From: Candidatus Thorarchaeota archaeon
Lineage (GTDB): Archaea; Asgardarchaeota; Thorarchaeia; Thorarchaeales; Thorarchaeaceae
DNA: 64,000 nt
NCBI GenBank assembly: GCA_018335335.1
Contig: JAGXKG010000003.1
Span: forward strand, 1-64,000
Direction: 5' to 3'
This document shows, in pieces, positions 14,685 to 34,222 of this stretch (the stretch's first letter is position 1; every line of letters begins with the position of its first letter). The position numbers and the translations under genes were made by a program. The notes under the pieces are model-generated. The model did no database searches and was not told where the DNA came from. It saw only the letters and a program-made list of their open reading frames with translations.

Positions 14685-15018
14685 AATCCTGTTATGACTG
14701 TTTCGTCTCTTAAATTAGTGATTGGTCGTGTTCCTTTCTCAATGGCCATATATGACCGAACATGTGAGCAACTTTTCACAGAAAGGGTATAGCCACTGCC
14801 CATAATATATACTCGTGTGAACTACAATGTCTCATTCAAGAAATACAACCAACAAGCGAGCTATTCTGAAACACTCAACAAAAGGGCCAAGTACTGAAGC
14901 ACTGTGTCATGCATATCGGTATCGGAAGTAGTGGAGCCGAGTATTCTCGCTCCCTCTTTCGCCGATATGATGATTTGCCACATTTGCCTTCAGTATAATT
15001 TGGGGTCTTTTTTGGTGA
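14685..15018. other. Intergenic region, possible promoter of the DUF362 gene
   Basis: No gene or stable RNA was recognised in these 334 bases. On the minus strand an AT-rich CATATATGG at about 14746-14754 could be the TATA element for the DUF362 gene, about 65 bases before its start. The rest, including ATAATATATAC near 14803-14813, is AT-rich with no clear assignment. Confidence 0.35.
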
Positions 15019-15795: not shown

Positions 15796-15905
15796 AGTGG
15801 GCAGGTTCTATAACCTCCTGTGTTTAATACCCGTTAGATACATTACCTCCACTTAAGACTAGAGATGATGGGTGAAGGAAGAACCAGCTGCAATATCCAT
15901 GGGGC

Positions 15906-15914
15906 TTATATTTA
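15906..15914 (+). promoter_or_regulatory. Predicted TATA box of PEP carboxykinase
   Basis: TTATATTTA lies only a few bases before the first in-frame ATG at 15919. A normal archaeal spacing would place the transcription start near 15936, downstream of that ATG, so the box argues for a later translation start at 15937 or 15973. Confidence 0.45.
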
Positions 15915-15972
15915 ACACATGACGCCCCTCAGTCCCATGATGGCAGCGAAATCCGCCAGGGAGACAGACCGC

Positions 15973-17844
15973 ATGAATGAAGCAATATCGATCCTTGAAG
16001 AGAAACTTAACGACGCGAACTTCAAGAAGTTGTTAGCGATTCCTAACAGGCGCATTCATAGATTCGTTGCGAATGCTATAGAGCTCTGCCAGCCAATGAA
16101 GGTTTTCGTGTGCAGTGATGAGAAGGAGGACATAGAATATGTGCGGAAAACTGCAATAGCCCGTGGTGAGGAAACACCGCTAGCAAATCCAAATCATACT
16201 GTGCATTTCGATGGCTTTTACGATCAAGCACGTGACAAAGAACACACTCGCTACCTAGTTCCAGAGGGCGAGAGCCTTGGTGACCAGCTGGCACAAATGA
16301 ATCGGCAGAAGGGACTAAAGCTGGTTCGGAAGCGTCTGAAGAACAGCATGAATAACAAGAAGTTGGTCGTACGCTTCTTCTGTCTCGGCCCGGTGGATTC
16401 ACCCTTTTCCATACCCTGTGTTCAAATCACCGACTCCTTCTATGTTGCACATAGTGAGGACCTTCTTTATAGACAGGGATACGAATTCTTCAAGACACTA
16501 CCTGAGGATGCTGAGATATTCTGGATGCTTCATTCCTCCGGCAAGCTCGCTCATGCTACGAGTATCAATTGGGACAAGCGTGGTGTTTCAATTGATTACA
16601 AGGAAAACACAGTGTATAGCGTAAACACACAATATGCTGGAAATACAATAGGTCTCAAGAAGCTCGCACTCAGACTTGCCATACGAAAGGCAAATCGGGA
16701 AGGTTGGCTTGCTGAACACATGTTCTTGATGGCTGCCCATGGTTCCAAAGGACGAAAGACGTATCTTACTGGTGCCTTTCCCTCCGGCTGTGGCAAAACA
16801 AGCACCTCGATGGTGAAGGGTAGTACCATTGTTGGTGATGATATCGCCTATCTCAGAGCGATTGACGATGAAATCCGAGGGGTGAATGTTGAACATGGAA
16901 TCTTTGGTATAATTCGCTCCGTCAACAAAAAAGACGATCCCGTCATCTGGAATGTTCTCCAGTCTGATGAACCAGTCATTTTTACCAATGTGCTTATTCA
17001 TGATGGGGAACCCTATTGGCTTGGAGATGGAAGAGAAACTCCTGATCGCGGTATCAATCATTCTGGCAACTGGTTCAAAGGCAAAGTCGACGCGGAAGGC
17101 AATGAGATTCCACCTTCCCACAAAAATGCGCGTTACACAGTAAGCCTAGATAGTCTCCCCAACAAAGATGAGACACTAGATGAGCAGATGGGCGTGAAAG
17201 TCGGGGGCATCATATATGGTGGGCGTGATAGCGATACTTGGGTTCCCGTGCAGCAGTCACTGAGCTGGAATCATGGCGTCATCACGATGGGTGCAAGTCT
17301 CGAATCAGAAACCACTGCAGCTACATTGGGCCCCAGTGGTATTCGGAAATTACAGCCCTTCTCCAATCTTGATTTCGTCTCAATTCCGCTTGGTGAGTAC
17401 ATTCAAAACCATCTTGATTTCGGAACCAAGGTGAATCAGTCTCCTGAAATCTTTGCCGTCAATTACTTTCTGAAAGATGACAATGGCGAATACATGAATG
17501 GAAAGCAGGACAAGCGCGTCTGGTTACAGTGGATGGATAGGAGGATTCATGGAGAAGCTGATGGTATCCTGGGCCCGACTGGGTATCTTCCCTACTACGA
17601 AGATCTGAAGCCCATTTTCAAAGGGGAACTTGGCAAAGATTACTCGCACAAAGCCTATGAAGAACAGTTTACAATCAGGGTTCCAGAGCTATTGGAGAAA
17701 ATCAAGCGGGTATCGAGAACTTACCGTGAGACTGTACCCGATACACCCCACATCCTCTATCGATTACTTGACGAACAGAAAGACCGCCTCCTAGATGCAC
17801 AGGAGAACCATGGTGACTACATTCAACCCTCGCAACTTGAATAA
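15973..17844 (+). CDS. pckG: Phosphoenolpyruvate carboxykinase (GTP)
   Basis: This enzyme converts oxaloacetate and GTP to phosphoenolpyruvate, CO2 and GDP, the entry to gluconeogenesis. About 623 residues, the usual size of the GTP-type. The kinase P-loop with its mobile active-site cysteine is FPSGCGKTST (near residue 270). The neighbouring GSKGRKTYLTGA, DDIAYLRA and GVNVEHGIFGI metal and GTP-binding segments follow in order. The frame is open to an ATG at 15919, but a TATA box sits just before that codon. The ATG at 15973, with AGGGAG seven bases upstream, is preferred; 15937 is an alternative. Confidence 0.95.
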   Translation: MNEAISILEEKLNDANFKKLLAIPNRRIHRFVANAIELCQPMKVFVCSDEKEDIEYVRKTAIARGEETPLANPNHTVHFDGFYDQARDKEHTRYLVPEGESLGDQLAQMNRQKGLKLVRKRLKNSMNNKKLVVRFFCLGPVDSPFSIPCVQITDSFYVAHSEDLLYRQGYEFFKTLPEDAEIFWMLHSSGKLAHATSINWDKRGVSIDYKENTVYSVNTQYAGNTIGLKKLALRLAIRKANREGWLAEHMFLMAAHGSKGRKTYLTGAFPSGCGKTSTSMVKGSTIVGDDIAYLRAIDDEIRGVNVEHGIFGIIRSVNKKDDPVIWNVLQSDEPVIFTNVLIHDGEPYWLGDGRETPDRGINHSGNWFKGKVDAEGNEIPPSHKNARYTVSLDSLPNKDETLDEQMGVKVGGIIYGGRDSDTWVPVQQSLSWNHGVITMGASLESETTAATLGPSGIRKLQPFSNLDFVSIPLGEYIQNHLDFGTKVNQSPEIFAVNYFLKDDNGEYMNGKQDKRVWLQWMDRRIHGEADGILGPTGYLPYYEDLKPIFKGELGKDYSHKAYEEQFTIRVPELLEKIKRVSRTYRETVPDTPHILYRLLDEQKDRLLDAQENHGDYIQPSQLE

Positions 17845-17918
17845 CCTCCGCAGATACAATACTTCAAATAGACTCGTAGAGTGTCCTCGTTGTCCAGTAT
17901 CTTCAATGAACGACCGAG

Positions 17919-19238
17919 GTGAAGCCGCTGCAGATAGATATCCAACCGATTGGAGTACTGGTCATCATCATATTTGTTGTCACCTATGTTGCCATTTCCA
18001 GCGAGAAAGTCAATCGGACAGCAATGTCAATGACCGGGATGGCTTTCGCAGGATTCGCACTGTGGATTGCACACACCATCGATCCGTCTCAGGGAACTGA
18101 TTTCACGAATCTAGTTTCCCATATTGAGTGGCATACCATCCTATTTGTTATGGCCATGATGGTCATCGTTTCTGTTGCTGGGGCTTCGGGCATGTTTCAG
18201 TATCTTGCGTTGACTCTGGCAAAACCCTCGGGAGGCGATACAAAGCACCTTTTCATCGTGCTCTTGACTTTCGTGTGGGCGGTTTCACTATTCTTTGATA
18301 CTACTTCAACCATTCTTATCATGGCCCCCTTAACCATCGAAATCTGCAGGGCGCTGGAAATCGATTTCAAACCGTTTCTAATATCGGAGGCAATAGTGGC
18401 CAATTTCGGCTCAATTCCTTCTGTTGTGGGCGCAGTTCCCAACTTGGTAATCGCATCCAAAACAGGAGTAGATGCTGGACTGATGTTCCTTGTACTGATG
18501 CCCCTTTCCGCCATTCTCTTCATCATTACACTTGTATACCTCTTGGCTCTTTTCGAACCAAAATTTGTACGTTGTCCACAAGATTTGGTCGACGATATTT
18601 TTGACATCAATCCACAGAATATGATCAAGTCAAGACGTGACTTCTATGCTTCAATTATCGCGATTATCGTTCTCATTCTTGGTTTCACGGCAGGTTCGAG
18701 TGTGGGCATTGAACCAGCTATGGTGGCAGTTACCGTTGCATTTGCCATGCTGTTGATGAACCATGAGCGAGTCAATGTCTTCCTTGCACGAATCGGATGG
18801 GGCACCATCTTCTTTCTGATAGGAATCTTCGGCCTTGTCACGGCGCTGGAGATTACCGGCGTTATAGATGCATTTGGAGACGGTGTAAGTGCACTGGTTG
18901 GAGACAGCATGGAAGGAGCAGCTGTTCTCCTGACCTGGCTCCCGGCCGGCCTTTCTGCTATCGTAGACAATATTCCTGTATCTGTTGTTCTTGCTCCAGT
19001 TGCTTTAGAATTCGCTTCAATCTCACCGGTGTTTACGTTTGCTCTGATTACAGCTGTTAATATTGGTGGCTATTTGCTTCCCATGGGTGCGCCGGCTAAC
19101 CTTATGGCGATTGGACTTGCAGAAGAGGCACGAAATCCCATAAGCTTCGTTGAATTTGCGAAAGTTGCCAGTCTATTGGCAATACTCCATCTGCTAGTAG
19201 CTAGTGGTTGGTTCCTGTTGGTTTTGGCTTTCTTGTAG
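17919..19238 (+). CDS. ArsB/NhaD-type ion transporter
   Basis: A 439-residue integral membrane protein of the ion-transporter superfamily that includes ArsB, NhaD and CitM permeases. About 11-12 hydrophobic helices are seen. The paired motifs typical of this group are VSLFFDTTSTILIMAPLT in the first half and LSAIVDNIPVSVVLAPVA in the second, each with an acidic residue in a helix hairpin. It may exchange Na+ and H+, or export an anion. The start is GTG at 17919, preceded by GACCGAG. It follows the PEP carboxykinase by 74 bases and may share its transcript. Confidence 0.85.
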   Translation: MKPLQIDIQPIGVLVIIIFVVTYVAISSEKVNRTAMSMTGMAFAGFALWIAHTIDPSQGTDFTNLVSHIEWHTILFVMAMMVIVSVAGASGMFQYLALTLAKPSGGDTKHLFIVLLTFVWAVSLFFDTTSTILIMAPLTIEICRALEIDFKPFLISEAIVANFGSIPSVVGAVPNLVIASKTGVDAGLMFLVLMPLSAILFIITLVYLLALFEPKFVRCPQDLVDDIFDINPQNMIKSRRDFYASIIAIIVLILGFTAGSSVGIEPAMVAVTVAFAMLLMNHERVNVFLARIGWGTIFFLIGIFGLVTALEITGVIDAFGDGVSALVGDSMEGAAVLLTWLPAGLSAIVDNIPVSVVLAPVALEFASISPVFTFALITAVNIGGYLLPMGAPANLMAIGLAEEARNPISFVEFAKVASLLAILHLLVASGWFLLVLAFL

Positions 19239-19318
19239 CTGCTGTTGGGCTTGGATTTGGTATTTTTTCACTTGGATGCTACTTAGGAAAGGTGGTATCA
19301 TTCACAAAGTTTATCTAT

Positions 19319-19334
19319 ATATCGTTAACGATAT
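19319..19334. promoter_or_regulatory. Perfect 16-bp palindrome, predicted PadR operator
   Basis: ATATCGTTAACGATAT reads the same on both strands. It overlaps the likely TATA element (TTATCTATATA, from about 19311) of the PadR gene that starts at 19384. Position and symmetry fit an autoregulatory operator. A related site with the same ACGATAT core follows 5 bases later. Confidence 0.6.
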
Positions 19335-19339
19335 CACTT

Positions 19340-19361
19340 ACGATATCAATAACAATATCGT
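19340..19361. promoter_or_regulatory. Second operator-like inverted repeat before PadR gene
   Basis: Arms ACGATAT (19340-19346) and ATATCGT (19355-19361) are perfect inverted repeats separated by 8 bases. The half-sites equal those in the palindrome at 19319-19334. This element covers the predicted transcription start, so a bound repressor would block initiation. Confidence 0.55.
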
Positions 19362-19383
19362 TAAAGACAAAAGGCGGAATAGC

Positions 19384-20139
19384 ATGCATCACGATATGCG
19401 GGAACGGCTCAGGCAAACCATAGATCTCTTCAAGCAGAAGGGAGCAACAAGCAGAGAAAATGCCTTGTCTCTGGATGAGCTGGGATTACCAAGCGTCTTT
19501 GAGTATTTCATAGATTCTCCGATGGGGGAACGCCTTCCATTTCAAGAGGTTGATGGAAAATACTATCTCGATGAAGAGGGTGTGGATGAGTACAAGGAGG
19601 CTCCATTTCCGATTCCTCCAATGACCCGTTGGGCAAAGCAAACTGCGCGAGTCCCTAAAGGCTACTTGAGATATCGGGTTCTCTTACTATTGAAAGAAAA
19701 ACCAATGGCTGGCTCTGAGATTATGTCCCGCATCGAGGAAGAGACAGGCGGCAGATACAGTCCCAGTCCAGGCTCGATATATCCTCTCTTGAAGAAACTG
19801 AAAGAGAGTGGGCTTGCTGAAGAACTACCAACTATTGATGGTATGAAGCGATACGAGCTAACAGATATGGGACACGCTTTTCTAGAGGAGCAAAGCGGCC
19901 AGTTTGAAAAGATGAAACAGCGGCTCAGTTCGGGCCCGATGTCAGTCCCACCATTTCTAGATCTTCCTGATGAGATTGACTATCTCAGGGATTCAGCTCG
20001 AAGGCTGCTCCATGCTTTGCTGGCAGTCACGATGGAACTGACTGATCATCCTGAATCCGAGGTTGCCGAGAAGCTAGAGTCTCTCATGACTGAAGCCGCA
20101 GAAGAAGCTGAACGACTTCTTGCCGAACTCAAATCGTGA
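19384..20139 (+). CDS. PadR-family transcriptional regulator with N-terminal extension
   Basis: A 251-residue regulator. Residues ~92-150 form the PadR winged helix: YLRYRVLLLLKEKPMAGSEIM, then SPSPGSIYPLLKKLKESGL and YELTDMGHAFL. A helical region (~195-250) ends the protein and probably dimerises. About 90 residues precede the PadR domain, which is unusual; PadR proteins normally begin close to the winged helix. The frame is open to 19204, inside the upstream gene, but the ATG at 19384 follows the operator and AAGGCGG. It lies directly before a MacB-type ABC exporter, 3 bases apart, so it most likely represses that exporter and itself. Confidence 0.85.
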   Translation: MHHDMRERLRQTIDLFKQKGATSRENALSLDELGLPSVFEYFIDSPMGERLPFQEVDGKYYLDEEGVDEYKEAPFPIPPMTRWAKQTARVPKGYLRYRVLLLLKEKPMAGSEIMSRIEEETGGRYSPSPGSIYPLLKKLKESGLAEELPTIDGMKRYELTDMGHAFLEEQSGQFEKMKQRLSSGPMSVPPFLDLPDEIDYLRDSARRLLHALLAVTMELTDHPESEVAEKLESLMTEAAEEAERLLAELKS

Positions 20140-20142
20140 AGT

Positions 20143-20859
20143 ATGTTGTTCCGCCCCACACAGGGGTCGATACAACTGAACACAGTACTACAAATAGAGG
20201 ATGCAACGAAACACTATAGAATGGGTGAAGTGACAGTCAAAGCCTTACGTGGAGTCAGTTTTGATGTCCACCAGGGCGAACTGATTTCAATTCTGGGACC
20301 AAGTGGAAGCGGCAAATCCACCTTGCTTAACTTAGCGGGTGCCTTGGACCGACCAACTAGCGGGAAAGTGGTCTTGAGTGGTGTGAATTTGAACGAGCTG
20401 GATGATAACGAGCTTGCTGGCATGAGGAAATCGGTTGGTTTTGTTTTTCAGTTCTATAATCTCATACCCCGGCTAAATGCCAAGGGGAATGTCGAGCTTC
20501 CGCTTACCATTGCAGGAATGTCAAAGGAGGAGCGAAAAGCCCGAGTAACTGATGCCTTGACCAAGGTTGGTCTTGGAAAGCGAATGGATCACAAACCTGC
20601 TGAGCTTAGCGGCGGTGAACGTCAGCGTGTTGCTATTGCACGGGCACTTGTGAATAATCCAACATTCTTGCTCATGGACGAGCCAACTGGCAATCTTGAT
20701 TCAGAGACGGCTCAAGACATCATGGAGCTTGTTATAGGGCTGAATGAAGAGCAGCACATTACTTGTATCATCGTCACTCATGATCCAGAAGTTTCCAAGG
20801 AAACGCCACGGATTCTCAGAATGCGTGACGGGCATATCGTGTCTGACGGGGGGAACTAG
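20143..20859 (+). CDS. ABC transporter ATP-binding protein, MacB/LolD type
   Basis: A 238-residue ATPase subunit. Walker A is GPSGSGKST, the Q-loop is VFQFYNLIP, the signature is LSGGERQRVAIARAL, Walker B is FLLMDEPTGNLDS and the switch His is in VTHD. These sequences match the LolD/MacB group, which powers FtsX-like permeases that export peptides, antibiotics or lipoproteins. It begins 3 bases after the PadR stop and ends 1 base before the permease start, so the three genes form one operon. Confidence 0.93.
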   Translation: MLFRPTQGSIQLNTVLQIEDATKHYRMGEVTVKALRGVSFDVHQGELISILGPSGSGKSTLLNLAGALDRPTSGKVVLSGVNLNELDDNELAGMRKSVGFVFQFYNLIPRLNAKGNVELPLTIAGMSKEERKARVTDALTKVGLGKRMDHKPAELSGGERQRVAIARALVNNPTFLLMDEPTGNLDSETAQDIMELVIGLNEEQHITCIIVTHDPEVSKETPRILRMRDGHIVSDGGN

Positions 20860-20860
20860 A

Positions 20861-22120
20861 GTGAAAGCACGTGATACACTATCATACTCATTTGGTGCCA
20901 TTCGTCTACGAAAGGTTCGGTCTGGCCTGACCACTTTGGGAATCGTTATTGGCGTTGGGGCGATAGTTGCACTCCTATCCTTCACTCAGGGTTTCCAGGT
21001 GGCAATAACTGGCCAGTTCCAAGAAGGTCTTTCTACTGATGTTGTGACTGTACAGACAGGCTCAACTGGTTTTGGTTTCAACAGTAACGGAGATAGTGAC
21101 TTCACACTGTACGCGAACGATACTGAGCTTGTTAACGAGATAGATGGAGTTGTTACTTCTAGCGCCACGATTTCTAAGACCGTTACTGCTGAATTAGACG
21201 ATTCGGATAGAACACTCAGCCTAACCGGGGCAGACTTTGATACATACCGCGAATTGTATTCAACATTTGTCGCCGAACATGGGATTATACCTGACAATCC
21301 TGATGATGATGAGATGGTTATTGGACACAGTCTTTATGATCCGTGGAATAACGGAACACACCTAGTAGAACCTGGCGATACCGTGAATGTATACTACACG
21401 GTGAGAAACGGAACCAAGCTGGTACCTGTCAACAAGTCAGTGACAATCGTTGGGATTCTGGAGGAAATCGGTGCCTTTGGATTCGGCCCCTCTGACACGG
21501 GGGCGTACATATCCCTAGAATCAGCAATGGAGTACTTCGATTCAGAAGAGATTTCTCAAATCTCAGTCAAGCTTGAGAGTGATGATAGTGACTTTATCGA
21601 CTCAGTTTCGGAAGACATTGAGGAGCTATTCCTCAACGAGGTGTCAGTTGTTTCTGCCACAGCAATGCTGAATACCATTTCTAATGCTCTTGACACTGTC
21701 GAGCTTCTCCTTGGGGGAATTGCTGGGATATCGCTTCTTGTTGCAGGGATTGGAATCATGAATATCATGATTGTCTCCCTCATGGAGCGCACTCGAGAAA
21801 TTGGAATTCTGAAGGCATTAGGCTCAACCGGCAGGAATGTGCTGCTCATCTTTCTTGGAGAAGCACTTCTTATTGGTTTGATTGGTGGTGCCCTCGGGAT
21901 TGGGGTTGGGGCACTCCTAGCCAATTTCTTTGGTCGATTCATGAGTGGTTTAGGAGGTCCTGGAGCTCAACGTGCCCCAATGGCCATCACACCCGTCCTA
22001 ACACCCACATTGGCCCTTGAGGCCTTGCTCTTCGGAGTACTTGTGAGTGTCGTGTTTGCACTCTACCCGGCATGGCGAGCCTCCAAGCTGGAACCAGTAG
22101 AAGCGCTTAGAAGTGAGTAG
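20861..22120 (+). CDS. MacB/FtsX-type ABC transporter permease
   Basis: A 419-residue permease. One N-terminal helix (~25-50) follows the usual LRKVRSGLTTLGIVIGVGAIVALLS start. A large extracytoplasmic domain (~55-270) follows, and then three C-terminal helices including the FtsX motif GIMNIMIVSLMERTREIGILKALG. It partners with the preceding ATPase. The frame remains open into the ATPase gene, but the GTG at 20861, just after its stop, gives the standard N-terminus. Export of a peptide or toxic compound is likely but the substrate is unknown. A hairpin terminator follows. Confidence 0.92.
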   Translation: MKARDTLSYSFGAIRLRKVRSGLTTLGIVIGVGAIVALLSFTQGFQVAITGQFQEGLSTDVVTVQTGSTGFGFNSNGDSDFTLYANDTELVNEIDGVVTSSATISKTVTAELDDSDRTLSLTGADFDTYRELYSTFVAEHGIIPDNPDDDEMVIGHSLYDPWNNGTHLVEPGDTVNVYYTVRNGTKLVPVNKSVTIVGILEEIGAFGFGPSDTGAYISLESAMEYFDSEEISQISVKLESDDSDFIDSVSEDIEELFLNEVSVVSATAMLNTISNALDTVELLLGGIAGISLLVAGIGIMNIMIVSLMERTREIGILKALGSTGRNVLLIFLGEALLIGLIGGALGIGVGALLANFFGRFMSGLGGPGAQRAPMAITPVLTPTLALEALLFGVLVSVVFALYPAWRASKLEPVEALRSE

Positions 22121-22146
22121 TATAATCCCTGCTGGATCGGGGATTG

Positions 22147-22190
22147 GGGGAGGAACTGAAGATCACCTCCCTCAATGATTTTTTTGCTTT
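22147..22190 (+). terminator. Hairpin terminator after the ABC operon
   Basis: GGGAGG and CCTCCC arms pair around a 12-base loop (22147-22172) and are followed by AATGATTTTTTTGC. The structure lies 27-50 bases after the permease stop. Confidence 0.6.
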
Positions 22191-22204
22191 CGTATTGCTA
22201 GGAC

Positions 22205-22319
22205 CCATGAGAGCAGCTCTTCTCAAACCTCCTGATGACATGAAGAAGCTGTCTGATGTGGTTTTTTTTGAGTTCGTCAACAAAAGAAGATGAAGCGTGA
22301 AGTTGAGGGATTTTCCTGA
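22205..22319 (+). pseudogene. Remnant of the 3' end of an HTH-LAGLIDADG gene
   Basis: Bases 22205-22260 match 25648-25703, inside the intact LAGLIDADG gene, at 54 of 56 positions, in the same orientation. The similarity then continues at the protein level after a frame change in an 8-T run: QQKKMKREVEG (22278-22310) against QQEERKQDVEH in the intact gene, and stops at TGA 22317-22319. No other part of that gene was found here. It is therefore a frameshifted leftover of a second copy, about 1.5 kb on the 5' side of the intact gene's start. Confidence 0.75.
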
Positions 22320-22502
22320 CAAAGAAATCGTATGGATTTGCATATTCTTCACTCTTGGTTCAGAGTTCCTGGTAGAATAAGGACACAGACGAATCAGCTT
22401 GCACGACCAGTTGGGATTACTGTAGAATCGATTCCAGATGTTGTTCTAACACAGGGCGCGGTCTGATGGGGCTTTCTTCGGGCTCACACAAACTAGTTAT
22501 GC
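22320..22502. other. Short gap without recognised features
   Basis: Nothing supportable was found between the pseudogene remnant and the stop of the BMP lipoprotein gene. It could hold further decayed pieces of the remnant copy, but I see no alignment by eye. Confidence 0.3.
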
Positions 22503-23660
22503 CTACCAGTACTTGCTACTTGGAACCGTAAGCTCGCCATCTATTATTTTCTGTTTTAGGTTCTCAACAGCAGTTATGATGTCGGCAGGCAGAGATAGCA
22601 AATCTTGATTCGTCTCATAACCTAGACCACCATTAGCTAAATCGAAGACCTGAACGCCTCCTTGAAACTGGTTATTGTACACGTTCTTGATGTTTTCATA
22701 CACCGCCACATCAATCTTCTTCAACATGGAAGTAACACAGACAGTTGGCGGCTCAGGGTTCTCCGGATTTTCAGTGCCAAGATACATCTGAGGACTATCG
22801 GAACCAATAACCCACACATTATGATCAGTATTGTTGTTTTTGGCAGCCGTAAATGCTCCTAGGCCGGCACGACCAGCGGCAGTGTAAATAGTATCGACAC
22901 CATTTGCGTACATTCCGTCAGCTAGATTCTGACCTGCTGTTGTGTCTGTCCATGACCCTGTATAGCTGACCGTGAAATCGATTCCGGGGTTAGAATAATT
23001 GGCTCCCCAGACATAACCTGCAGCGTATCTGTTAACTAATGGTATATCCATGCCGCCAATAAATCCAATCTGCTCTCTTTCTGTCCACATCCCCGCAATT
23101 GCACCAACAAGAGCTGAACCTTCATGCTCATCAAATACAGCACTGGAGACGTTGGGTTGATCCACCACCGTGTCAATTATGCAGAATTTCTGATTGGGAT
23201 AGTCCTCCGCAGTTTCGTTAAGCGATTCTGCTTGGTCAAATCCTATTGATATAATCAGTTCATACGGTTCACGCCCTTCAGGATCCGCATAGTCTCTTAG
23301 ATGGGTCTCATATTCCGAAATTGATTCAGGCTCAACATAGTCAAAGTCCCAACCAAAATCGTTTTCGAATTGTTGCGCACCTCTGAAGGCAGCGTCATTG
23401 AATGATTTGTCGCCTAGTCCACTTGTTGTGAACACAATTGCAATTTCGCCATCTTGCATTGGTTCTGTGGGAGTAGTCGTAGTCGGACTGGTCATTGTAG
23501 TGGTTGTTGTAGGAGTGGTTGTAGTGGTATTCCCATTTCCGTTAGTTGACCCCGAAAATAAGAAGAATCCCAAGGTCACTCCCATCAACAAAACAATAAT
23601 AACAGCCGCAGCGATAGTTCTGATGCTTGTCGATTCCTTTTGTGCTAGAGGCACTTCCAA
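22503..23660 (-). CDS. BMP/PnrA-like surface substrate-binding protein
   Basis: A 385-residue secreted or membrane-anchored binding protein. Residues ~12-35 form a hydrophobic anchor. Residues ~40-70 are a Thr/Pro-rich linker, probably glycosylated. The rest is a BMP-family (PnrA/TmpC, nucleoside-binding) fold: IAIVFTTSGLGDKSFNDAAFRGAQQ, then ISIGFDQAESL, FCIIDTVVD, HEGSALVGAIAG, IGFIGGMDIPL, and VIGSDSPQ. It probably captures nucleosides or a related ligand. The frame is open to 23870, but a TTG at 23658-23660 with GGAGGGT upstream gives a natural N-terminus; the longer start would overlap the divergent gene. No ABC permease is next to it. Confidence 0.85.
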   Translation of the reverse strand: MEVPLAQKESTSIRTIAAAVIIVLLMGVTLGFFLFSGSTNGNGNTTTTTPTTTTTMTSPTTTTPTEPMQDGEIAIVFTTSGLGDKSFNDAAFRGAQQFENDFGWDFDYVEPESISEYETHLRDYADPEGREPYELIISIGFDQAESLNETAEDYPNQKFCIIDTVVDQPNVSSAVFDEHEGSALVGAIAGMWTEREQIGFIGGMDIPLVNRYAAGYVWGANYSNPGIDFTVSYTGSWTDTTAGQNLADGMYANGVDTIYTAAGRAGLGAFTAAKNNNTDHNVWVIGSDSPQMYLGTENPENPEPPTVCVTSMLKKIDVAVYENIKNVYNNQFQGGVQVFDLANGGLGYETNQDLLSLPADIITAVENLKQKIIDGELTVPSSKYW

Positions 23661-23816
23661 ACAATTTACCCTCCATTTCCATACGCTGAAGACAATACAA
23701 AAGAATTTCTCTTGTTTACCTTTCTTTGGATATCTGGAGGTTTGGCTGGAGGTGCCTGTATATGCTTTAGTATCTTCATGAGATACTATTGAGGAGAATT
23801 CATAGATACATTGAGG

Positions 23817-25802
23817 ATGCGCGACTTGGAATTCAATGGAGAAGGCACTCGGAAAAGCTACACATTTCATGAATCTGCTTATCCAACCGAGGTTTTCCTA
23901 GATAGTTTTCCCCAGTCAGTAGAAGAATTGAATTGGATGCTCAAAAGACACCCTCATTTGCGTGAATACAATCATTTCTCCGAATATTATCGCAGATGCG
24001 TATCGTATATTCGTCTCAAGAAGAGACAAAAGAAAGGCAATCTCGATGATGTGACATATACCGAATTAGCAAGGCAGTATCATGTATCGAGGGGTGTAAT
24101 TGGTTCATGGCTACGAGGCGAAAAGTCACCTGAACTCGCTAACATGCTGGTAAGGAGCGAAATCAGACGTAGAGAATACGAAGCCAGATTCAGCCATATG
24201 GCGTTCAGACATCGAATTGACCCCAGTACTGTTTATACTGTCCTAGAGCCTTTGCGGAAAAATGACATATTCACGATTTCAACTCTACAGGATGCTATCG
24301 AATCTCTATATGATTTTGTAGAGAACAAACCCGGCGTGACATTTGCGGAGCTTCGGCCATGCCACAGAATCAAAGGAAAATGGCTTGGAGGAATAGCAGA
24401 ATCGATAGAGGATGCCTTACAAGAGATACAGGAGCAAATCAATCGCGGTCTTGGTTTAGACGAAATCCTTACACGAGAGCTTCGCCTTGGTGTCGTTCAG
24501 GACAGATTATATTTCAGAATCCACGACCGTGACCCTCTGAACTGGTTCAACCTCTACAAGAACGAATTGTTCTATTTCACTTCCATTAATGAAAAAATAG
24601 AGCTTATGGCTGATGCGAGAAAACGATTGGGCATTCACGGTGATACGGTGCTCAGCTACCTAATAGATCAAATCACTGACTACCGGCGGACAGTTGAGAC
24701 TTTCAATCAGAATTCAGACCTGAAACGGAACCATGCATACCTGCGCGGGGAGACACTACATTTCCTACTTGATGTCGTTGAAATGACAATCCAGGACATA
24801 CAAGAGAAAATCGATTGCGTTGGACGAAGCTATGGGAACCAAGCTGGCTCGATTCGGAATCCGCGCTTTCCTGACGACCAACACGAAATTAGCATGATAC
24901 TTGTGAGGCTGCTCGGAGCGGGGATGTCCGATGGTCATATTGAGAGTAGAAACAAAGGTTTCGTCTATACAGAATCGAATGAAGATCGTGCCGAAATTTT
25001 CAAAGCGCACATGAATGAGCTTGGAGAGGTCGACTATGATGAGAAGCAGTTGACTAATGGAATGATACGGATACGCTTCCCAACTATTGTTGGTCGCATG
25101 CTTGCTAGGCTAGGGATGCCATTGGGAGACAAGGCTCTTTCCTGTACCGGTTTGCCTCGGTTCATCAAGGAAGCATCATTCCCCGTGATTTGCGAGTATT
25201 TCCAGCAAATGTGGGTCGAGGATGGCAACTTTAGCGTGGTTAGTGAGGGGTGCCGAGCAAGGTTTCAGTGGGACCGTGGTGTCACTTTTCGGGATCCATC
25301 CAAAGCGACCAAGTATGACTTTCAGTCATTGGCCTCGGATGATCATATTGCACTCGTTCGTCGGCATGGAGACAAACATCAGGATAAGACCTTTGGCGAG
25401 ACATCCACCTTAACACTTGGGAAATTGAATGAGCTATGCGGGACAAAAGAAACAAACGAAACAATGAACGCGAAGTCTTTGAAAGAATTAATTGAAAATA
25501 ACCCACCAAATCTCATGGAAGACGAAATTGAGCTATTAGCAAAACTTGGAGTCTCTGCAAAGAAGTATGTGGTTGAAGTGAATTTCTATGAAGGAACGGG
25601 TCGTCTTTCTGCTCTCTGGAGGGCTTTAACTTGCAGACAAGAGGATACCATGAGAGCAGCTCTTCTCACACCTCCTGATGACATGGAGAAGCTGTCTGAT
25701 GTGATGAGATGGGTCTTTCAGCAAGAGGAACGGAAACAAGATGTTGAACATGACCTTGCTGCAGAAGGAATCGACGACTGGCCTTTCCGCTCTCTGGAAT
25801 AA
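23817..25802 (+). CDS. Free-standing HTH-LAGLIDADG homing-endonuclease-like protein
   Basis: A ~660-residue cytosolic protein. Near residues 82-103 is a helix-turn-helix (TYTELARQYHVSRGVIGSWL). Two LAGLIDADG-type motifs follow: LLGAGMSDGHIES (~366-379) and FQQMWVEDGNFSV (~464-476), each ending in an acidic residue as needed for metal-dependent cleavage. No intein splicing blocks are seen at the ends, and it is not inside another gene. Function by homology would be site-specific DNA cleavage or a regulatory role derived from it. ATG at 23817; the TTG at 23811 is less likely. A decayed copy of its 3' end lies at 22205-22319. Confidence 0.75.
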   Translation: MRDLEFNGEGTRKSYTFHESAYPTEVFLDSFPQSVEELNWMLKRHPHLREYNHFSEYYRRCVSYIRLKKRQKKGNLDDVTYTELARQYHVSRGVIGSWLRGEKSPELANMLVRSEIRRREYEARFSHMAFRHRIDPSTVYTVLEPLRKNDIFTISTLQDAIESLYDFVENKPGVTFAELRPCHRIKGKWLGGIAESIEDALQEIQEQINRGLGLDEILTRELRLGVVQDRLYFRIHDRDPLNWFNLYKNELFYFTSINEKIELMADARKRLGIHGDTVLSYLIDQITDYRRTVETFNQNSDLKRNHAYLRGETLHFLLDVVEMTIQDIQEKIDCVGRSYGNQAGSIRNPRFPDDQHEISMILVRLLGAGMSDGHIESRNKGFVYTESNEDRAEIFKAHMNELGEVDYDEKQLTNGMIRIRFPTIVGRMLARLGMPLGDKALSCTGLPRFIKEASFPVICEYFQQMWVEDGNFSVVSEGCRARFQWDRGVTFRDPSKATKYDFQSLASDDHIALVRRHGDKHQDKTFGETSTLTLGKLNELCGTKETNETMNAKSLKELIENNPPNLMEDEIELLAKLGVSAKKYVVEVNFYEGTGRLSALWRALTCRQEDTMRAALLTPPDDMEKLSDVMRWVFQQEERKQDVEHDLAAEGIDDWPFRSLE

Positions 25803-25832
25803 AAATGAAAATGGCTGGCCATCTACCAGCCA
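25801..25832 (-). terminator. Hairpin terminator of the S19 gene (possibly bidirectional)
   Basis: Perfect 7-bp arms TGGCTGG/CCAGCCA (25812-25818 and 25826-25832) with a 7-base loop. On the minus strand the stem is followed by ATTTTCATTTTTATT, a T-rich tract 19-50 bases after the S19 stop. Confidence 0.6.
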
Positions 25833-25850
25833 AAAGTTTTGTCCTTCGCT

Positions 25851-26264
25851 CTACTTCAGTGGTACGTATGCAGAGCTCTTGGTAGCTCCGATACCGGGGC
25901 TGCCATGCTTAACCTTCTTGTTAGTGATAGCGAACTCTCCTAAACAATGTCCAATCATAAGCGGAGTGACTTTAACATCTTGGAAGCGATAACCGTCGTG
26001 AACTCCAAAGGTGAGGTCTACCATTTCGGGGAGAATGACCATGTCGCGGCAGTGAGTTCGGATGACTGGGGCCTTTCCTTTCTTGAGTTTCTTGCGAGCA
26101 TCCCTGACCTTCTTGAGGAGTTTCTTCTGGCGCGGAGGAAGGCCTCGTTTAAGAGATCGTCTGCGTCGAGCTGGGAGGAGTTCGATGAGATCGTCCATGC
26201 TCATTTCGACGAGCTCTTGGATTTTGTAGCCACGATATGTTGGTTCTCTGCCACGTTGGGACAT
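25851..26264 (-). CDS. rps19: 30S ribosomal protein S19 (uS19), archaeal type
   Basis: A 137-residue protein that binds the head of the small ribosomal subunit. Archaeal/eukaryotic features include YRGYKIQELVEMSMDDL (an N-terminal extension absent from bacterial S19), PVIRTHCRDMVILPEMV, IGHCLGEFA and KHGSPGIGATKSS near the end. The start follows GGGTGAT, a good ribosome binding site. In most archaea this gene sits in the S10/L2-L22-S3 cluster; here it is alone, beside a LAGLIDADG gene, with no other ribosomal gene in the window. Confidence 0.95.
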   Translation of the reverse strand: MSQRGREPTYRGYKIQELVEMSMDDLIELLPARRRRSLKRGLPPRQKKLLKKVRDARKKLKKGKAPVIRTHCRDMVILPEMVDLTFGVHDGYRFQDVKVTPLMIGHCLGEFAITNKKVKHGSPGIGATKSSAYVPLK

Positions 26265-26641
26265 GTAATCACCCTATGAATTGGGGAATATACTATTGGT
26301 AGTAATTCAATGTGATGCCTTGAAAGTGTGAATTTAAGGGTTATGCAGCAGCTGTTGAAAACTTCATGACTTGGATCAATGGGGTCGACAGGGTCGTTTT
26401 CATCCATTTCCTTGAGCTTGTTTCTGATCTCCGACTCGGTCAACTCATCGGCGTTTGGAATCGTTCCTTTGAATGCCTCCAGTTCCGCCTTCTTGGAGAA
26501 TGCCATGTCAGCTCTTCTGTCCCATTCCCTTATTTTGCAATCCATATCTGTTTGCTCCGTCTCATCTATCTTCTTCAGAAGACGCTGACAGTCTGAAACA
26601 GAACGGGTATTTTTGCATATGGCTAGAAGCAGAACAAACAC
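26201..26641 (-). CDS. Doubtful charged small protein overlapping the S19 start
   Basis: A 146-codon minus-strand frame between the TPR gene and S19. The middle section (about residues 18-95) has a hydrophilic helical composition like real protein, with KKIDETEQTDMDCKIREWDRR and acidic PNADELTESE. The last ~40 codons read into the 5' part of S19 in a different frame and look non-coding. It may be the remains of a gene or chance. No family is recognised. The region 26265-26693 otherwise contains only the S19 promoter/leader. Confidence 0.25.
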   Translation of the reverse strand: MFVLLLAICKNTRSVSDCQRLLKKIDETEQTDMDCKIREWDRRADMAFSKKAELEAFKGTIPNADELTESEIRNKLKEMDENDPVDPIDPSHEVFNSCCITLKFTLSRHHIELLPIVYSPIHRVITCPNVAENQHIVATKSKSSSK

Positions 26642-29435: not shown

Positions 29436-30224
29436 ATGAAGATTGTAGTGCCAATAAAACAAGTTCCCGAAGTAGCAGAAGTCAAGATTGACCCGGAGAC
29501 TAACACCCTTGTGCGTGAAGGTGTACCATCAATTCTGAATCCTTTTGATGAATTTGCTGTGGAAGCCGCAATGCAGTTGAAGGAGCAGTTCGGCGGCGAG
29601 GTCACCATTATCACCATGGGTCCCCCACAAGCAAAGGATGCGCTGTACAAGGCTTTAGCAATGGGTGGTGACAAGGCTGTTCTGATTACGGATCGAGCTT
29701 TTGCAGGGGCTGATACCTGGGCAACATCATACACTCTTGCACAGCAAATCAAGAAGATGGATTACGATCTTGTGATTTGCGGCAAACAGGCCATCGACGG
29801 TGATACTGCACAGGTCGGTCCTGAAATTGCAGAATTGCTGGGTATTCCACAGATATGCTATGTCCGCGATATCGAGGTATCAGATGACGAGAAGCATATT
29901 ACTGTTCACAGGGAAACCGATGAAGGGTACGAAGTTGTCAGGGCAAAGATGCCCATGTTACTCACAGCCACCAAGGGTCTCAATGAACCACGGTTGCCGA
30001 ATATTATGGGTATTATGAAGGCGAAGAAGAAACCGCTGGAAGAAGTGAGTTTTGAGGACCTTGGCGTTGATGAAGACGATGTGGGATTGAAGGGTTCCCC
30101 CACTCAGGTGAGAAAGGTGTTTCCGCCTGAGAAGAAGAAAGGTGGTATCAAAATAGAACCAGAGACTCCTGAAGAAGGGGCCAACCAACTTGTTGAATTC
30201 CTCGCGAAGAAGGGGGCGATATGA
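29436..30224 (+). CDS. etfB: Electron transfer flavoprotein beta subunit
   Basis: A 262-residue Etf small subunit: MKIVVPIKQVPE start, TLVREGVPSILNPFDEFA, and DLVICGKQAIDGDTAQVGP, which are standard for FixA/EtfB. It pairs with the following alpha subunit; together they hold FAD and AMP/FAD and pass electrons from dehydrogenases. The two genes are 1 base apart. Residues ~180-235 include a Lys-rich, charged loop (MKAKKKPLEEVS). Beta subunits of bifurcating complexes share this length. Confidence 0.95.
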   Translation: MKIVVPIKQVPEVAEVKIDPETNTLVREGVPSILNPFDEFAVEAAMQLKEQFGGEVTIITMGPPQAKDALYKALAMGGDKAVLITDRAFAGADTWATSYTLAQQIKKMDYDLVICGKQAIDGDTAQVGPEIAELLGIPQICYVRDIEVSDDEKHITVHRETDEGYEVVRAKMPMLLTATKGLNEPRLPNIMGIMKAKKKPLEEVSFEDLGVDEDDVGLKGSPTQVRKVFPPEKKKGGIKIEPETPEEGANQLVEFLAKKGAI

Positions 30225-30225
30225 A

Positions 30226-31425
30226 ATGGGTCTGAATTACGATAGAGACACCTGTACTGGATGCGGCATGTGTCTAAAAGTGTGCAATTTTGGAGCAATC
30301 AAGAAGGATGGCAAGAAAGTCGCCTTCGATATGAACAAATGTGTACTTTGTGGCTCCTGTGAGGAAGTGTGCCCCGTTGATGCTATCGAAATCGAACGAA
30401 AAGCTGTAGATGAGGAAACCCTTGAAGGCTACGAAGGGGTTTGGGTGGTCTGCGAGACCAAAGAGGGAAGACTACGTAGTGTTGCCAACGAACTCATAAC
30501 AGAGGGAAGAGTGCTTGCAGACAAACTAGGCGAGGAACTCACTGCAGTCGTCGTCGGGCATGATATCCAAGACCTTGCCCAGCCTCTTATCTATCAGGGG
30601 GCGGACAAGGTATTGGTCGTAGACGACGAAGTGTATGCTGACTACACCACTGATGCGTATACAATCGCTGTAACCTCCCTCATCTCCTCCAGAGACCCTT
30701 CAATCGTACTTTACGGTGCGACAAGCAATGGCAGAGATTTGGCCCCTCGCGTTGCAGCCAGGCTCGGACTCGGACTTACTGCGGACTGCACGGCACTTGA
30801 CATCGATGATGAAGGTCAACTCGTTCAGACACGCCCTGCATTTGGTGGCAATGTCATGGCTGAAATCATCACTCCATATACCCGCCCCCAGATGGCCACT
30901 GTTCGGCCCAATGTATTCAAAGTGGCTGAACCGGATGAATCACGAGAGGGTGAAATCGAAAAGATCGACATTACAATCGACAAATCGCAGATCCGGACCG
31001 AAGTCCTTGACACCGTCATCGAAAAGGTCGAAGGAATGAAATCGGTCGAAGAGGCTGACATAGTTGTCTGTAGCGGCCGTGGCATCAAAGATCCTTCCAA
31101 CCTGGACCTTCCCAAGAAATTGGCTGACTTGCTTGACGCTGCTGTCGGTGGCTCGCGACCCATCGTCGACGCCGGCTGGCTCCCACCAACCCAGCAGGTC
31201 GGCCAGTCTGGACGGACCATCTGTCCCAAACTCTACTTTGCATTCGGGATCAGTGGAGCCATACAACATCTAGCAGGAATGAGAAGCAGCGATATAATCG
31301 TAGCTGTGAATAAAGACCCAGAAGCGCCGATTTTCGAAGTAGCAGATTTCGGAATCGTGGGAGACCTGTTTGATGTTGTCCCTGAAATCATCGAGCAGAT
31401 CAAGAAGCTGCAAGAAGAAAGGTAG
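30226..31425 (+). CDS. etfA: Electron transfer flavoprotein alpha subunit with N-terminal ferredoxin domain
   Basis: A 399-residue fusion. Residues 1-60 carry two [4Fe-4S] motifs: Cys10, 13, 16, 20 (CTGCGMCLKVC) and Cys39, 42, 45, 49 (CVLCGSCEEVCP). Residues ~75-399 are EtfA, with FAD-binding GGSRPIVDAGWLP, GQSGRTICPKLYFAFGISGA and VNKDPEAPIFEVADFG. Similar ferredoxin-EtfA fusions occur in the caffeyl-CoA reductase and lactate dehydrogenase Etf complexes of anaerobes, several of which bifurcate electrons to ferredoxin. No dehydrogenase partner is adjacent. The frame is open slightly upstream but the ATG at 30226, just after etfB, matches the ferredoxin start. Confidence 0.94.
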   Translation: MGLNYDRDTCTGCGMCLKVCNFGAIKKDGKKVAFDMNKCVLCGSCEEVCPVDAIEIERKAVDEETLEGYEGVWVVCETKEGRLRSVANELITEGRVLADKLGEELTAVVVGHDIQDLAQPLIYQGADKVLVVDDEVYADYTTDAYTIAVTSLISSRDPSIVLYGATSNGRDLAPRVAARLGLGLTADCTALDIDDEGQLVQTRPAFGGNVMAEIITPYTRPQMATVRPNVFKVAEPDESREGEIEKIDITIDKSQIRTEVLDTVIEKVEGMKSVEEADIVVCSGRGIKDPSNLDLPKKLADLLDAAVGGSRPIVDAGWLPPTQQVGQSGRTICPKLYFAFGISGAIQHLAGMRSSDIIVAVNKDPEAPIFEVADFGIVGDLFDVVPEIIEQIKKLQEER

Positions 31426-31434
31426 AAACGACTC

Positions 31435-31468
31435 AGAGCCTGTTTGTCAGACAGTGGGAGCAGGCTCT
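31435..31468 (+). terminator. Hairpin after the Etf operon
   Basis: AGAGCCTG (31435-31442) and CAGGCTCT (31461-31468) pair perfectly around an 18-base loop and a T-containing stretch follows. It is 10 bases after the etfA stop. The right arm also lies inside the direct repeat that flanks the next gene. Confidence 0.5.
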
Positions 31469-31495
31469 CGTTCATTTATTTCAAATTCGGATATT
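31459..31495. repeat. Direct repeat copy 1 at the 3' end of an HTH-LAGLIDADG gene
   Basis: A 37-base stretch starting AGCAGGCTCTCG matches 33194-33230 with one mismatch, same orientation. It includes the last codons and stop of the LAGLIDADG gene (31476). The two copies bracket the whole gene. Confidence 0.85.
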
Positions 31496-33131
31496 CCTTT
31501 CTAGCCCATCTACTAATCGTGTAATACGGCCAGCCATGACCAAATTCGTCGAAAATCGTTTCTGAAATGTTGCCCCAAGACATTCCATCCTTGCGAAGGA
31601 TATGGATTCTTCTCAGTTCATCTTCCGTCATTTGACGTGAATGGTCCCATGTTTTCATCATTATCTTAAGTTTATGCAGATTCTGTTTCCTGTCTGCTGC
31701 GTATCTGAACATGTCTAATTCAGCCAATCTGGCAATCGAATTATGAGCGCTAACCACGATTGCTCCATCTCCGACATGCGATTCCACTTCAAATGTACTC
31801 AGTAGTTTCTGAAAGAATTCGGTATTACTAGTTGTTGCAATACTGACATACTGGGACGCAAGAGAAGCGCATCCGTCTCCATCGCAGATACCTTGTAGAA
31901 ATGCTACCCTCCAATCTAAGGGAGAATCGAGTATCCAGTCTGCGGACACGGAGTCATATGTCTTCGATTCAGAGCTCTCAAGCCCCAGACATGTTTCTCT
32001 TATCCAAGTCAAGAAGGGAGTGGCTTCACTCTCCCAATGATGGCTTCCTGACGAAGGATATGAGCGTGTAGATTCCCGGGAATCGCTATCTTGATTTCTA
32101 TGTGCATCAATGCCTAACATCCTGAGATGATAACAGGTTCCATCGCCATAATCCAAACTCCAGTCGTATTCCTGCCCTAGCCCCATTCCGAACGATGACG
32201 AACGAATGTTTGTCCCTTCTCTCAATCTAATACTACCATCAGATAGAATGGATCCAAGCGCATACATGAAGGAATCTATTGGTGTTGTAGGACCGAATCT
32301 TCTTCGCATACTTTTCGTTAGTTCGCCTTCCAGTGGTCGCAGGGGAGAAACCACATCCTCTATTTCTCTATGACTTTGGATTCTCAGAGGAACTTGTATG
32401 AAGTTCGAGGGATTGTTCTTTGGACCAGTTTTCAAAGGCAGCCAGACGTAACCTTCTATAGGTTTTTCAGATGGTATAGCAGATGCCAGTTGAATCATCC
32501 ACGGGATTGTACTATTATACCATCTTCTTACAGTAGAATGAGAAACCCCTACTAGCCGAGCAATATCGGTAAGCAGACCGCCCTGAGCAATTTGTTCCAT
32601 GAAAAGGAAATACTTCTTGGCCATTTCGTGATCCTTATCGTAATTGGCTGACTCTCTGTACTCCCTTCCCGCATAGTAGTTGTCAATTCTTCGGTCTATC
32701 TCCCCAATATCCTCAATGCCATCAATGGCTGACTTAATTCCATTGAGTTTCTTTCTTGCATCAGGAACAGAAATAGCATCTCGAAGCACAGATATGATTT
32801 TGGGTGGTACCGCTTTCAGAACTCTGTCTTGAACGGTGGTGTAATTTATGTCAAATTCTCTTGATAGCTTGCTAAGTTCTCCATACGCTAGGAACTTACG
32901 CCCTTCGATTTTCCCGAGTAATTTGAAGTCCTTGCAGGAAAGTTCCATCCATCTCTCAAAACACATGGTGTGTCTTATGCCGGGGCAAATCTTATCGATT
33001 AAAGCGACGAGGTGGGCATGAGATTTGACAGTTATCCCGAATACACTCAATTCCGGTGAATCTATGTTGTGATATTCCTCTCCATTTCTCTTTGTGTAAT
33101 GTTCCCCCTTCTTATCCCGAATTTCACTCAT
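31476..33131 (-). CDS. Free-standing HTH-LAGLIDADG homing-endonuclease-like protein
   Basis: A 551-residue protein. Predicted HTH segments lie at ~84-105 (YGELSKLSREFDINYTTV) and ~185-206 (LLTDIARLVGVSHSTVRRW), and a third HTH-like end region is at ~500-545. The LAGLIDADG pair is ALGSILSDGSIR (~291-302) and FLQGICDGDGCA (~411-422), both with conserved acidic residues. Architecture matches the protein at 23817-25802, although the sequences differ. No splice junction blocks indicate an intein. The start ATG follows GGAG. The whole gene sits between 37-bp direct repeats, so recent insertion or duplication is likely. Confidence 0.75.
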   Translation of the reverse strand: MSEIRDKKGEHYTKRNGEEYHNIDSPELSVFGITVKSHAHLVALIDKICPGIRHTMCFERWMELSCKDFKLLGKIEGRKFLAYGELSKLSREFDINYTTVQDRVLKAVPPKIISVLRDAISVPDARKKLNGIKSAIDGIEDIGEIDRRIDNYYAGREYRESANYDKDHEMAKKYFLFMEQIAQGGLLTDIARLVGVSHSTVRRWYNSTIPWMIQLASAIPSEKPIEGYVWLPLKTGPKNNPSNFIQVPLRIQSHREIEDVVSPLRPLEGELTKSMRRRFGPTTPIDSFMYALGSILSDGSIRLREGTNIRSSSFGMGLGQEYDWSLDYGDGTCYHLRMLGIDAHRNQDSDSRESTRSYPSSGSHHWESEATPFLTWIRETCLGLESSESKTYDSVSADWILDSPLDWRVAFLQGICDGDGCASLASQYVSIATTSNTEFFQKLLSTFEVESHVGDGAIVVSAHNSIARLAELDMFRYAADRKQNLHKLKIMMKTWDHSRQMTEDELRRIHILRKDGMSWGNISETIFDEFGHGWPYYTISRWARKEYPNLK

Positions 33132-33193
33132 ATTCTCCTCTCGGAGTCTAGTCTCTGCCTAGCCTATTTAGTCTCCCACGGTATGAGAATAGC

Positions 33194-33230
33194 AGCAGGC
33201 TCTCGTTCATTTATTACAAATTCGGATATT
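33194..33230. repeat. Direct repeat copy 2 upstream of the LAGLIDADG gene
   Basis: The second copy of the 37-base repeat. On the minus strand it encodes a 3' end like that of the intact gene: KKYPNL and a stop, against RKEYPNLK and a stop. It begins just past the stop of the alpha/beta hydrolase gene and 63 bases upstream of the LAGLIDADG start. It looks like the leftover 3' tail of another copy. Confidence 0.8.
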
Positions 33231-33235
33231 TCTTC

Positions 33236-34222
33236 TCACATGGATTCTCCAAGAAATTCAAGTATTTCTGAACTCGTTTCAGGGATATGTTCTCCTAACC
33301 AGACTATATGGCCAACATGGTCAAGACTGTACAATCTAGCATTTGGGATTGATGAAGCCGAGAGCTCAGCATTTGTGTATGATACATCACCATCGGCTGT
33401 TCCATGAACCACTAATGTTGGGCACTCTATGACGTCCAAATTATCAAAAGATACCTGTCCAAGCTGCTCCAAATCATTGTTGAGCCCTACATTTCTTAGA
33501 CTCATTGGACAGGTCGTGCGGACGAACCTCTTATACCAAGCAACCTGTTCTGGGATCGCCATCACTTCGTCTACATACTCATCTAATTCCTCTGGTTCCA
33601 AGGTCACGTTCTCTTTGAACATCTGTTTCAATGACATGCTAGTCCAGTATCTGGTCAGAATGTCGTACAACCAGACCCCGAAATCCGCAATCGTGTCGGA
33701 CATAAGTATCCGACCAAGCAAGGAATGCATTTGGTTTTCTTTTACTGTATACTCTTGGCTGACCGCCGCCACTAGAACCAGAGCATCTACTCTGTCTGGA
33801 TAACGTAAAGCAAAATGCAGGGCTATTGGACCCCCTGCCGAGGCAGCAACAATCGCGACATTTGAGATACCAAGTGTGTCCAGTAACGCGTTAATAGCAT
33901 CTGCTTGTGCTTCGAATGTCTTGCCCGTCCTCAATGGTGTGCGCAGATAGCCTGGTCTAGAAATTGCCAACAATGAGAACCCCTCGTTGACCCACATATC
34001 CATATCTAGTGAACCTTGATCATATCCGCCAGGAGCACCATGTAACATCAGAACTACTGGTCCATCTCCTTTTAGAGCATACTCGATTTCGCCCGTTGAA
34101 GTGCTTGCAACTCTACTCCCCTCCTTTAGAGCGCTGGTTATATTTCGCTTCCAACCTCTAAATGATACTATAATCCAGATAAGAATCAATACCAGAATCA
34201 CAAGAGCGAGTTCAACGAACAT
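33236..34222 (-). CDS. Membrane-anchored alpha/beta hydrolase
   Basis: A 328-residue enzyme with an N-terminal hydrophobic anchor (~2-22) and an alpha/beta hydrolase domain. The oxyanion segment is LMLHGAPGGYDQ. The nucleophile elbow is AASAGGP, with Ser in the GxSxG-like position. The acid lies near VVHGTADGDVSY and the His in LDHVGHIVW. Substrate unknown, probably an ester. The stop codon touches the direct repeat copy left of it, so the 3' neighbourhood was altered by the LAGLIDADG insertion or duplication, but the enzyme appears complete. Confidence 0.85.
   Translation of the reverse strand: MFVELALVILVLILIWIIVSFRGWKRNITSALKEGSRVASTSTGEIEYALKGDGPVVLMLHGAPGGYDQGSLDMDMWVNEGFSLLAISRPGYLRTPLRTGKTFEAQADAINALLDTLGISNVAIVAASAGGPIALHFALRYPDRVDALVLVAAVSQEYTVKENQMHSLLGRILMSDTIADFGVWLYDILTRYWTSMSLKQMFKENVTLEPEELDEYVDEVMAIPEQVAWYKRFVRTTCPMSLRNVGLNNDLEQLGQVSFDNLDVIECPTLVVHGTADGDVSYTNAELSASSIPNARLYSLDHVGHIVWLGEHIPETSSEILEFLGESM

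Follow-up and report, generated by a model that had tools for sequence, protein, structure and literature searches.

A free-standing LAGLIDADG gene beside ETF-alpha in a Thorarchaeota genome: a probable homing gene that leaves duplicated host-gene ends

In the genome of a Candidatus Thorarchaeota archaeon, a putative homing endonuclease gene sits between the complete genes for an electron transfer flavoprotein subunit and a hydrolase. The window that we analysed is a stretch of 64,000 nucleotides on contig C3 of this genome (G000, a 2.94-Mb assembly in 176 contigs); all the genomes compared are draft MAGs. The features of the locus are as follows.

30190-31425, + strand: host gene, electron transfer flavoprotein alpha subunit (ETF-alpha) with a ferredoxin domain (Pfam ETF, ETF_alpha, Fer4)
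31436-31470, + strand: intact terminator-like hairpin, AGAGCCTG...CAGGCTCT, directly 3' of ETF-alpha and followed by a T-rich stretch
31459-31499: left direct repeat, on the ETF-alpha side, holding the 3' arm of the hairpin and the last codons and stop of the endonuclease gene
31476-33131, - strand: putative free-standing HTH-LAGLIDADG homing endonuclease gene, 551 aa, ORF intact (ORF list, Pfam, AlphaFold2, Foldseek)
31872-31901, - strand: LAGLIDADG motif 2, FLQGICDGDG, with D417 and D419 invariant (alignment of 27 relatives)
32235-32261, - strand: LAGLIDADG motif 1, LGSILSDGS, with D298 nearly invariant (alignment of 27 relatives)
32514-32597, - strand: helix-turn-helix segment, residues 179-206 (Pfam HTH_23)
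33132-33184: 5' flank of the endonuclease gene, with the junction to the orphan copy near 33184, where the alignment to G039 stops
33194-33234: right direct repeat (orphan old end), adjoining the hydrolase stop, with the 3' arm of the hairpin only; the hairpin is lost on folding
33236-34222, - strand: flanking alpha/beta hydrolase gene (Pfam Abhydrolase_1), which adjoins ETF-alpha in the empty site (G039 synteny)

The 551-aa protein matches HTH_23 and LAGLIDADG_3, both above Pfam cut-offs, and has no match in NCBIfam. A sequence search against solved structures gave no relevant match, and fold comparison alone was informative: the AlphaFold2 model (pLDDT 91, pTM 0.84) is matched by Foldseek to I-DmoI (probability 1.00, TM 0.6-0.7), PI-SceI and I-SceI, with WhiA also among the matches. 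Judged by its fold and by the conserved acidic residue in each motif, the product is most readily taken as a LAGLIDADG homing endonuclease, and it would be expected to cleave DNA. Because the ORF starts and stops on its own, with a complete gene on either side, it lies outside any intron or intein. An endonuclease borne by a group I intron or an intein was rejected: an Rfam scan of the window from 21.5 to 34.5 kb matched no intron family, and the ETF-alpha coding sequence is not interrupted by the insertion.

The direct repeats that bracket the gene are 41 nt long and identical at 39 of 41 positions. They have only these two copies in the whole assembly, and their local alignment scores 36, whereas 40 shuffles reached at most 15. 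An earlier note on this DNA had described them as 37 bp long and differing at one base; the repeats are real, but those 37 bp are the inner part of the longer stretch. Its reading of the coding tails stands, as ...ARKEYPNLK-stop lies inside the left copy and KKYPNL-stop, in the same frame, in the right one. The claim that the repeat is a duplicated tail of the gene holds for the last codons only, since what is duplicated is first and foremost the end of the host locus, that is, the ETF-alpha hairpin arm and the adjoining DNA. Repeats dispersed through the genome without the gene, which the note had set against its own reading, are not what is seen. The repeat would thus be the terminator-like end of a host locus that overlaps the last codons of an endonuclease gene.

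In G039, a genome of the same genus, the corresponding site is empty. Here ETF-alpha (97% amino acid identity to the window) and the hydrolase (85%) are about 80 nt apart, in the order ETF-alpha, hairpin, a single copy of the repeat, hydrolase, and there is no endonuclease gene. On the left, the alignment of this intergenic DNA to the window runs on to the end of the left copy; on the right it begins at about 33185, which is about 10 nt before the right copy becomes homologous to the left one. Over about 10 nt, the hairpin loop of the orphan copy resembles G039 more than the left copy does. The hairpin after ETF-alpha folds at -19.5 kcal/mol (z -2.8) in G000 and at -25.7 kcal/mol (z -4.5) in the empty site, whereas the right copy, with its 3' arm only, folds no better than shuffled sequence. 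Since the hairpin is whole at ETF-alpha and in G039 but halved in the right copy, the point of breakage and joining would lie in or near its loop. ETF-alpha itself shows no foreign stretch in G000 when compared with G039, so a donor-derived end is not demonstrated at the window locus.

A second element of the same architecture lies upstream in the window.

22205-22260: left (orphan) copy of a 56-nt repeat, 54/56 identical to the right copy; homology to G039 ends at 22260
23811-25802, + strand: 663-aa LAGLIDADG-like gene (gene 2), its tail facing rpS19
25648-25703: right copy of that repeat, within the coding tail of gene 2; homology to G039 resumes at 25650, in single copy

Its neighbour, which we take from the sequence to be rpS19 (25851-26264, - strand), stands tail to tail with gene 2. 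Both LAGLIDADG genes are thus flanked on the 5' side by a copy of a 3' end, as the earlier note had proposed. In G039, window positions 13836-22260 and 25650-26362 directly follow one another, with one copy of the 54-56-nt repeat, and only the last 51 codons of gene 2 are kept there beside rpS19. Because these 51 codons are homologous to the C-termini of other members of the endonuclease family, they are a remnant of such a gene. This solo tail (G039:C108:21445-21597) is about 97% identical to window 25650-25802, compared with about 81-84% for the flanking non-coding DNA, which would mean either a recent loss of the gene or retention of the short ORF for some reason. Along with gene 2, the stretch absent from G039 includes, within window 22261-23810, a Bmp-family lipoprotein gene (22503-23870, - strand). 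Comparable passenger ORFs occur between orphan end and endonuclease at other loci, one of them, in G000:C24, being PIN-domain-like by eye.

ETF-alpha is present in 33 genomes, and we inspected the site after it for family members. An intact member follows it directly in G000 and in G010, where it is codirectional with ETF-alpha and so breaks the polarity. In G033 the member is 5'-truncated and has an in-frame TAG, and C-terminal pieces are found in G003 (cut by the contig end), G026 and G030, those of the latter two being remnants of 33 codons. A shorter resemblance after ETF-alpha was seen by eye in G020. The site is thus occupied in G000, empty in G039, and intact or broken in other genera. 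The earlier note had asked for an empty site: the one in G039 has a single repeat copy, and an empty site devoid of the repeat, which would have told against the proposal, was not seen. Insertion, one of the two origins suggested in that note, gains support from this single-copy, endonuclease-free site, and a resident tail from the C-terminal remnants in G026 and G030 and from the solo tail at rpS19 in G039. The other origin, tandem duplication followed by deletion, could account for one locus alone but is not needed.

Could the empty sites be secondary? The occupied, duplicated state might predate the split of G000 and G039, with G039 having lost both genes through recombination between the repeats, which would yield exactly its single-copy states. 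The high identity of the gene 2 tail (97%, against about 81-84% in adjoining non-coding DNA) looks as if the full gene had been under selection until recently. We regard such a loss as possible though rather unlikely. In fact, the left and right copies at ETF-alpha differ at 2 of 41 positions, whereas each differs from G039 at 8-9 of 41, which, small as these numbers are, points to a duplication after the two species had split. Moreover, loss still requires an earlier duplicating insertion, and would therefore change the date but not the mechanism.

Relatives of the endonuclease were sought in 47 related genomes, and 34 relative loci were taken with their flanks. Among named genome contigs, a single-protein query found no relatives; an alignment query did. 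The named records with relatives are mostly from Candidatus Thorarchaeota, with some labelled Hermodarchaeota, Woesearchaeota or Aenigmatarchaeota; no relatives were found in viral contigs. A conserved gene recurs downstream of the endonuclease, on its C-terminal side. The neighbour is the 5' end of pycB in G039, G015 and G020, that of an acyl-CoA carboxylase gene in G000, G008 and G034, and that of what we presume from sequence to be hutU in G000, G017 and G046; it is the 3' end of an acyl-CoA dehydrogenase gene in G015 and G032, L44e in G029, G017, G018 and G021, and fumarase in G008 and G045. In the protein tree, the members at pycB, those at hutU and those at ETF-alpha each form one clade with support of 100 and three genera each, whereas members at acyl-CoA carboxylase genes, or at L44e, do not group into one clade. 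Mapped on this tree, the site labels need 21 changes (the minimum being 20), against a mean of 29.1 when shuffled. Clades sorted by site are a pattern that would be expected of site-specific homing genes. A cross-genus transfer of the near-identical fumarase pair in G008 and G045 was dropped because the whole 5.8-kb contig is 95.6% identical, and misbinning is as likely.

Orphan ends of the adjoining host gene were found on the far, 5' side of the endonuclease in the window and at five relatives. G039 carries an orphan pycB start (first ~92 codons, 270 nt, 89% identical), G011 an orphan gcvT start (first 53 codons, 152 nt, 76%), G046 an orphan hutU start in two pieces (first ~94 codons, 203 nt, 65%) and G000:C24 an orphan acyl-CoA carboxylase start region (83 nt, 88%); in G015 the last 21-22 codons of the acyl-CoA dehydrogenase gene are present in two extra copies. 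A weaker duplicated end adjoins a formaldehyde-activating-enzyme-like gene in a Hermodarchaeota-labelled MAG. Thus, the duplicated end is a terminator in the window but a coding gene end in the related elements. Scored by a blind criterion, 6 of 24 testable endonuclease loci had such a bracket, compared with 4 of 47 other ORFs (Fisher p = 0.066; some of these control matches, at least, are repeated or paralogous stretches), and no orphan end was detectable at the remaining 18 of the 24. The excess over ordinary ORFs is only suggestive, and being modest, it leaves the argument resting on the repeats being ends of the adjoining host gene.

Several of these loci hold further features. The three acyl-CoA dehydrogenase 3' ends of G015 (L092 858-965, 4607-4714 and 6708-6819, endonuclease-sense coordinates) look as if they came from two successive insertions, with a masked stretch in the outer insert. 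The pycB contig of G000 (C132, L182) stops at codon 33, within the stretch duplicated in G039, and this contig end may reflect a similar duplication at which the assembly broke. A foreign pycB 5' end in G039 was considered and rejected, the old fragment, the new end and G000 being about equally distant (91-93%). In the hutU gene that lies beside a family member in G000, the first ~135 nt are 49-69% identical to G039 and later parts mostly 78-89%; such a divergent start would be expected of a donor-derived end, fast N-terminal evolution being possible too. The hutU frame is broken by insertions of 30-32 nt at two different conserved positions in G000, G017 and G046 (endonuclease-sense: L115 about 7230-7260, L117 about 6725-6760, L118 about 7405-7440) and absent from G039. 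Each holds a short hairpin, which makes them candidate miniature archaeal introns of the bulge-helix-bulge type.

We propose, as the probable explanation, that the window gene is a free-standing, site-specific LAGLIDADG homing gene of a lineage specialised on the 3' end of ETF-alpha, with sister lineages on other gene ends, and that it spreads by a cut-and-copy process that leaves an orphan end. The endonuclease would cut an allele without the insertion, close to where the host gene ends (for ETF-alpha, in the hairpin's loop region), and repair would copy the host-gene end together with the endonuclease gene from an occupied allele. The C-terminal side of the endonuclease would always point toward the intact host gene, as it does in the dated site groups; what had been the recipient's own end would be left as an orphan on the 5' side. 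The duplicated end would thus become a direct repeat, while the host gene and its terminator would stay whole. The sequences themselves display the empty single-copy site, a repeat that is a host end, recurrence at the same site across genera, site-sorted clades and orphan ends; from these we infer cleavage, mobility by gene conversion and the direction of copying.

Copying may even be one-sided, though we put this forward tentatively, as a rather doubtful extension. The broken host end would invade the occupied allele, and copying would proceed outward across the new gene end, then the tail and the head of the endonuclease gene, and then passenger DNA; end-joining to the orphan old end would follow. 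If so, aborted copying would produce solo C-terminal tails and 5'-truncated copies, much as in LINEs, and the tail remnants at ETF-alpha and rpS19 would be by-products of homing and not of decay. In fact, the 5' part is missing while upstream sequence is present in G033, G042, G045, G032 and G000:C24; no clear 3'-truncated copies were seen, and C-terminal tails occur alone at ETF-alpha and rpS19. Since detection favours the C-terminal half, the asymmetry can serve only as a lead.

The repeats could also stem from an ordinary tandem duplication at the locus and a later deletion, the passenger being a WhiA-like HTH-LAGLIDADG regulator that is not mobile. WhiA is indeed among the fold matches and the protein has an HTH, but we think this improbable: WhiA-like regulators are single-copy and vertically kept, whereas the genes studied here are present or absent between sister genomes at two sites, re-use the same host genes across genera in site-sorted clades, and conserve both aspartates at the catalytic positions. 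Lastly, an integrase-type element with the endonuclease as cargo is very improbable. Direct repeats of ~40-56 nt over a gene 3' end do resemble attL and attR attachment sites, but no integrase ORF lies between the repeats (31459-33234) and those of the relatives vary from 41 to 270 nt, are host-gene-specific in sequence and fall on gene 5' ends too.

Homing genes that settle in conserved genes usually leave them functional by lying within an intron or an intein. The intron-encoded archaeal endonucleases of the I-DmoI type appear, from the model, to share the double-motif LAGLIDADG fold with the protein described here; unlike theirs, the present gene is not intron-borne, and its product has an extra N-terminal helical/HTH region and C-terminal helices. 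Our search of the open-access literature on homing endonucleases in Asgard archaea and Thorarchaeota returned nothing on this architecture and no archaeal report. HeimM2 of Heimdallarchaeum, an 8-kb element between a 16S rRNA gene and a tRNA, is likewise a mobile element of Asgard archaea that carries a homologue of homing endonucleases and is inserted precisely, next to a conserved gene, but its homologue is of the rRNA type, and the part of that account used here describes no duplicated host-gene end (PMC8813620). A general precedent, as far as the part of the source drawn on goes, is the intronless homing of T4-like phages by the free-standing endonucleases SegA-G and MobE, which are also intergenic beside conserved genes, outside introns and inteins, and present or absent between relatives; however, they are GIY-YIG or HNH enzymes that cleave hundreds of bases or more from their gene, and that part describes no host-end duplication (PMC2988022).

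The closest described analogue is found in fungal mitochondria, where mobile endonuclease ORFs replace the C-terminus of host genes, such as atp6 of Allomyces macrogynus and atp6, atp9, cox2 and nad3 of Glomus (PMC3630166). In both cases a free-standing LAGLIDADG (or, in fungi, GIY-YIG) ORF accompanies a duplicated host-gene end; in the fungi the native end is displaced beyond the ORF and a new end completes the gene, and the same may have happened here (PMC3630166). In contrast, the genes described here lie on an archaeal chromosome, encode HTH-LAGLIDADG proteins and use both 5' and 3' gene ends; the ETF-alpha duplicate is a terminator that overlaps the C-terminal codons of the endonuclease, and a foreign new end is only hinted at, in hutU. 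Duplication and replacement of gene ends would thus be a further way for homing genes to occupy conserved genes, one that we found described for fungal mitochondria only (PMC3630166). For annotators, orphan gene ends beside LAGLIDADG genes would be footprints of insertion, and the ends of adjoining host genes may be foreign. With several genera, several host genes and both gene ends involved in an Asgard lineage, and with sister genomes showing empty sites, orphan ends and solo tails, we envision that a cycle of invasion, decay and re-invasion would become testable in archaea.
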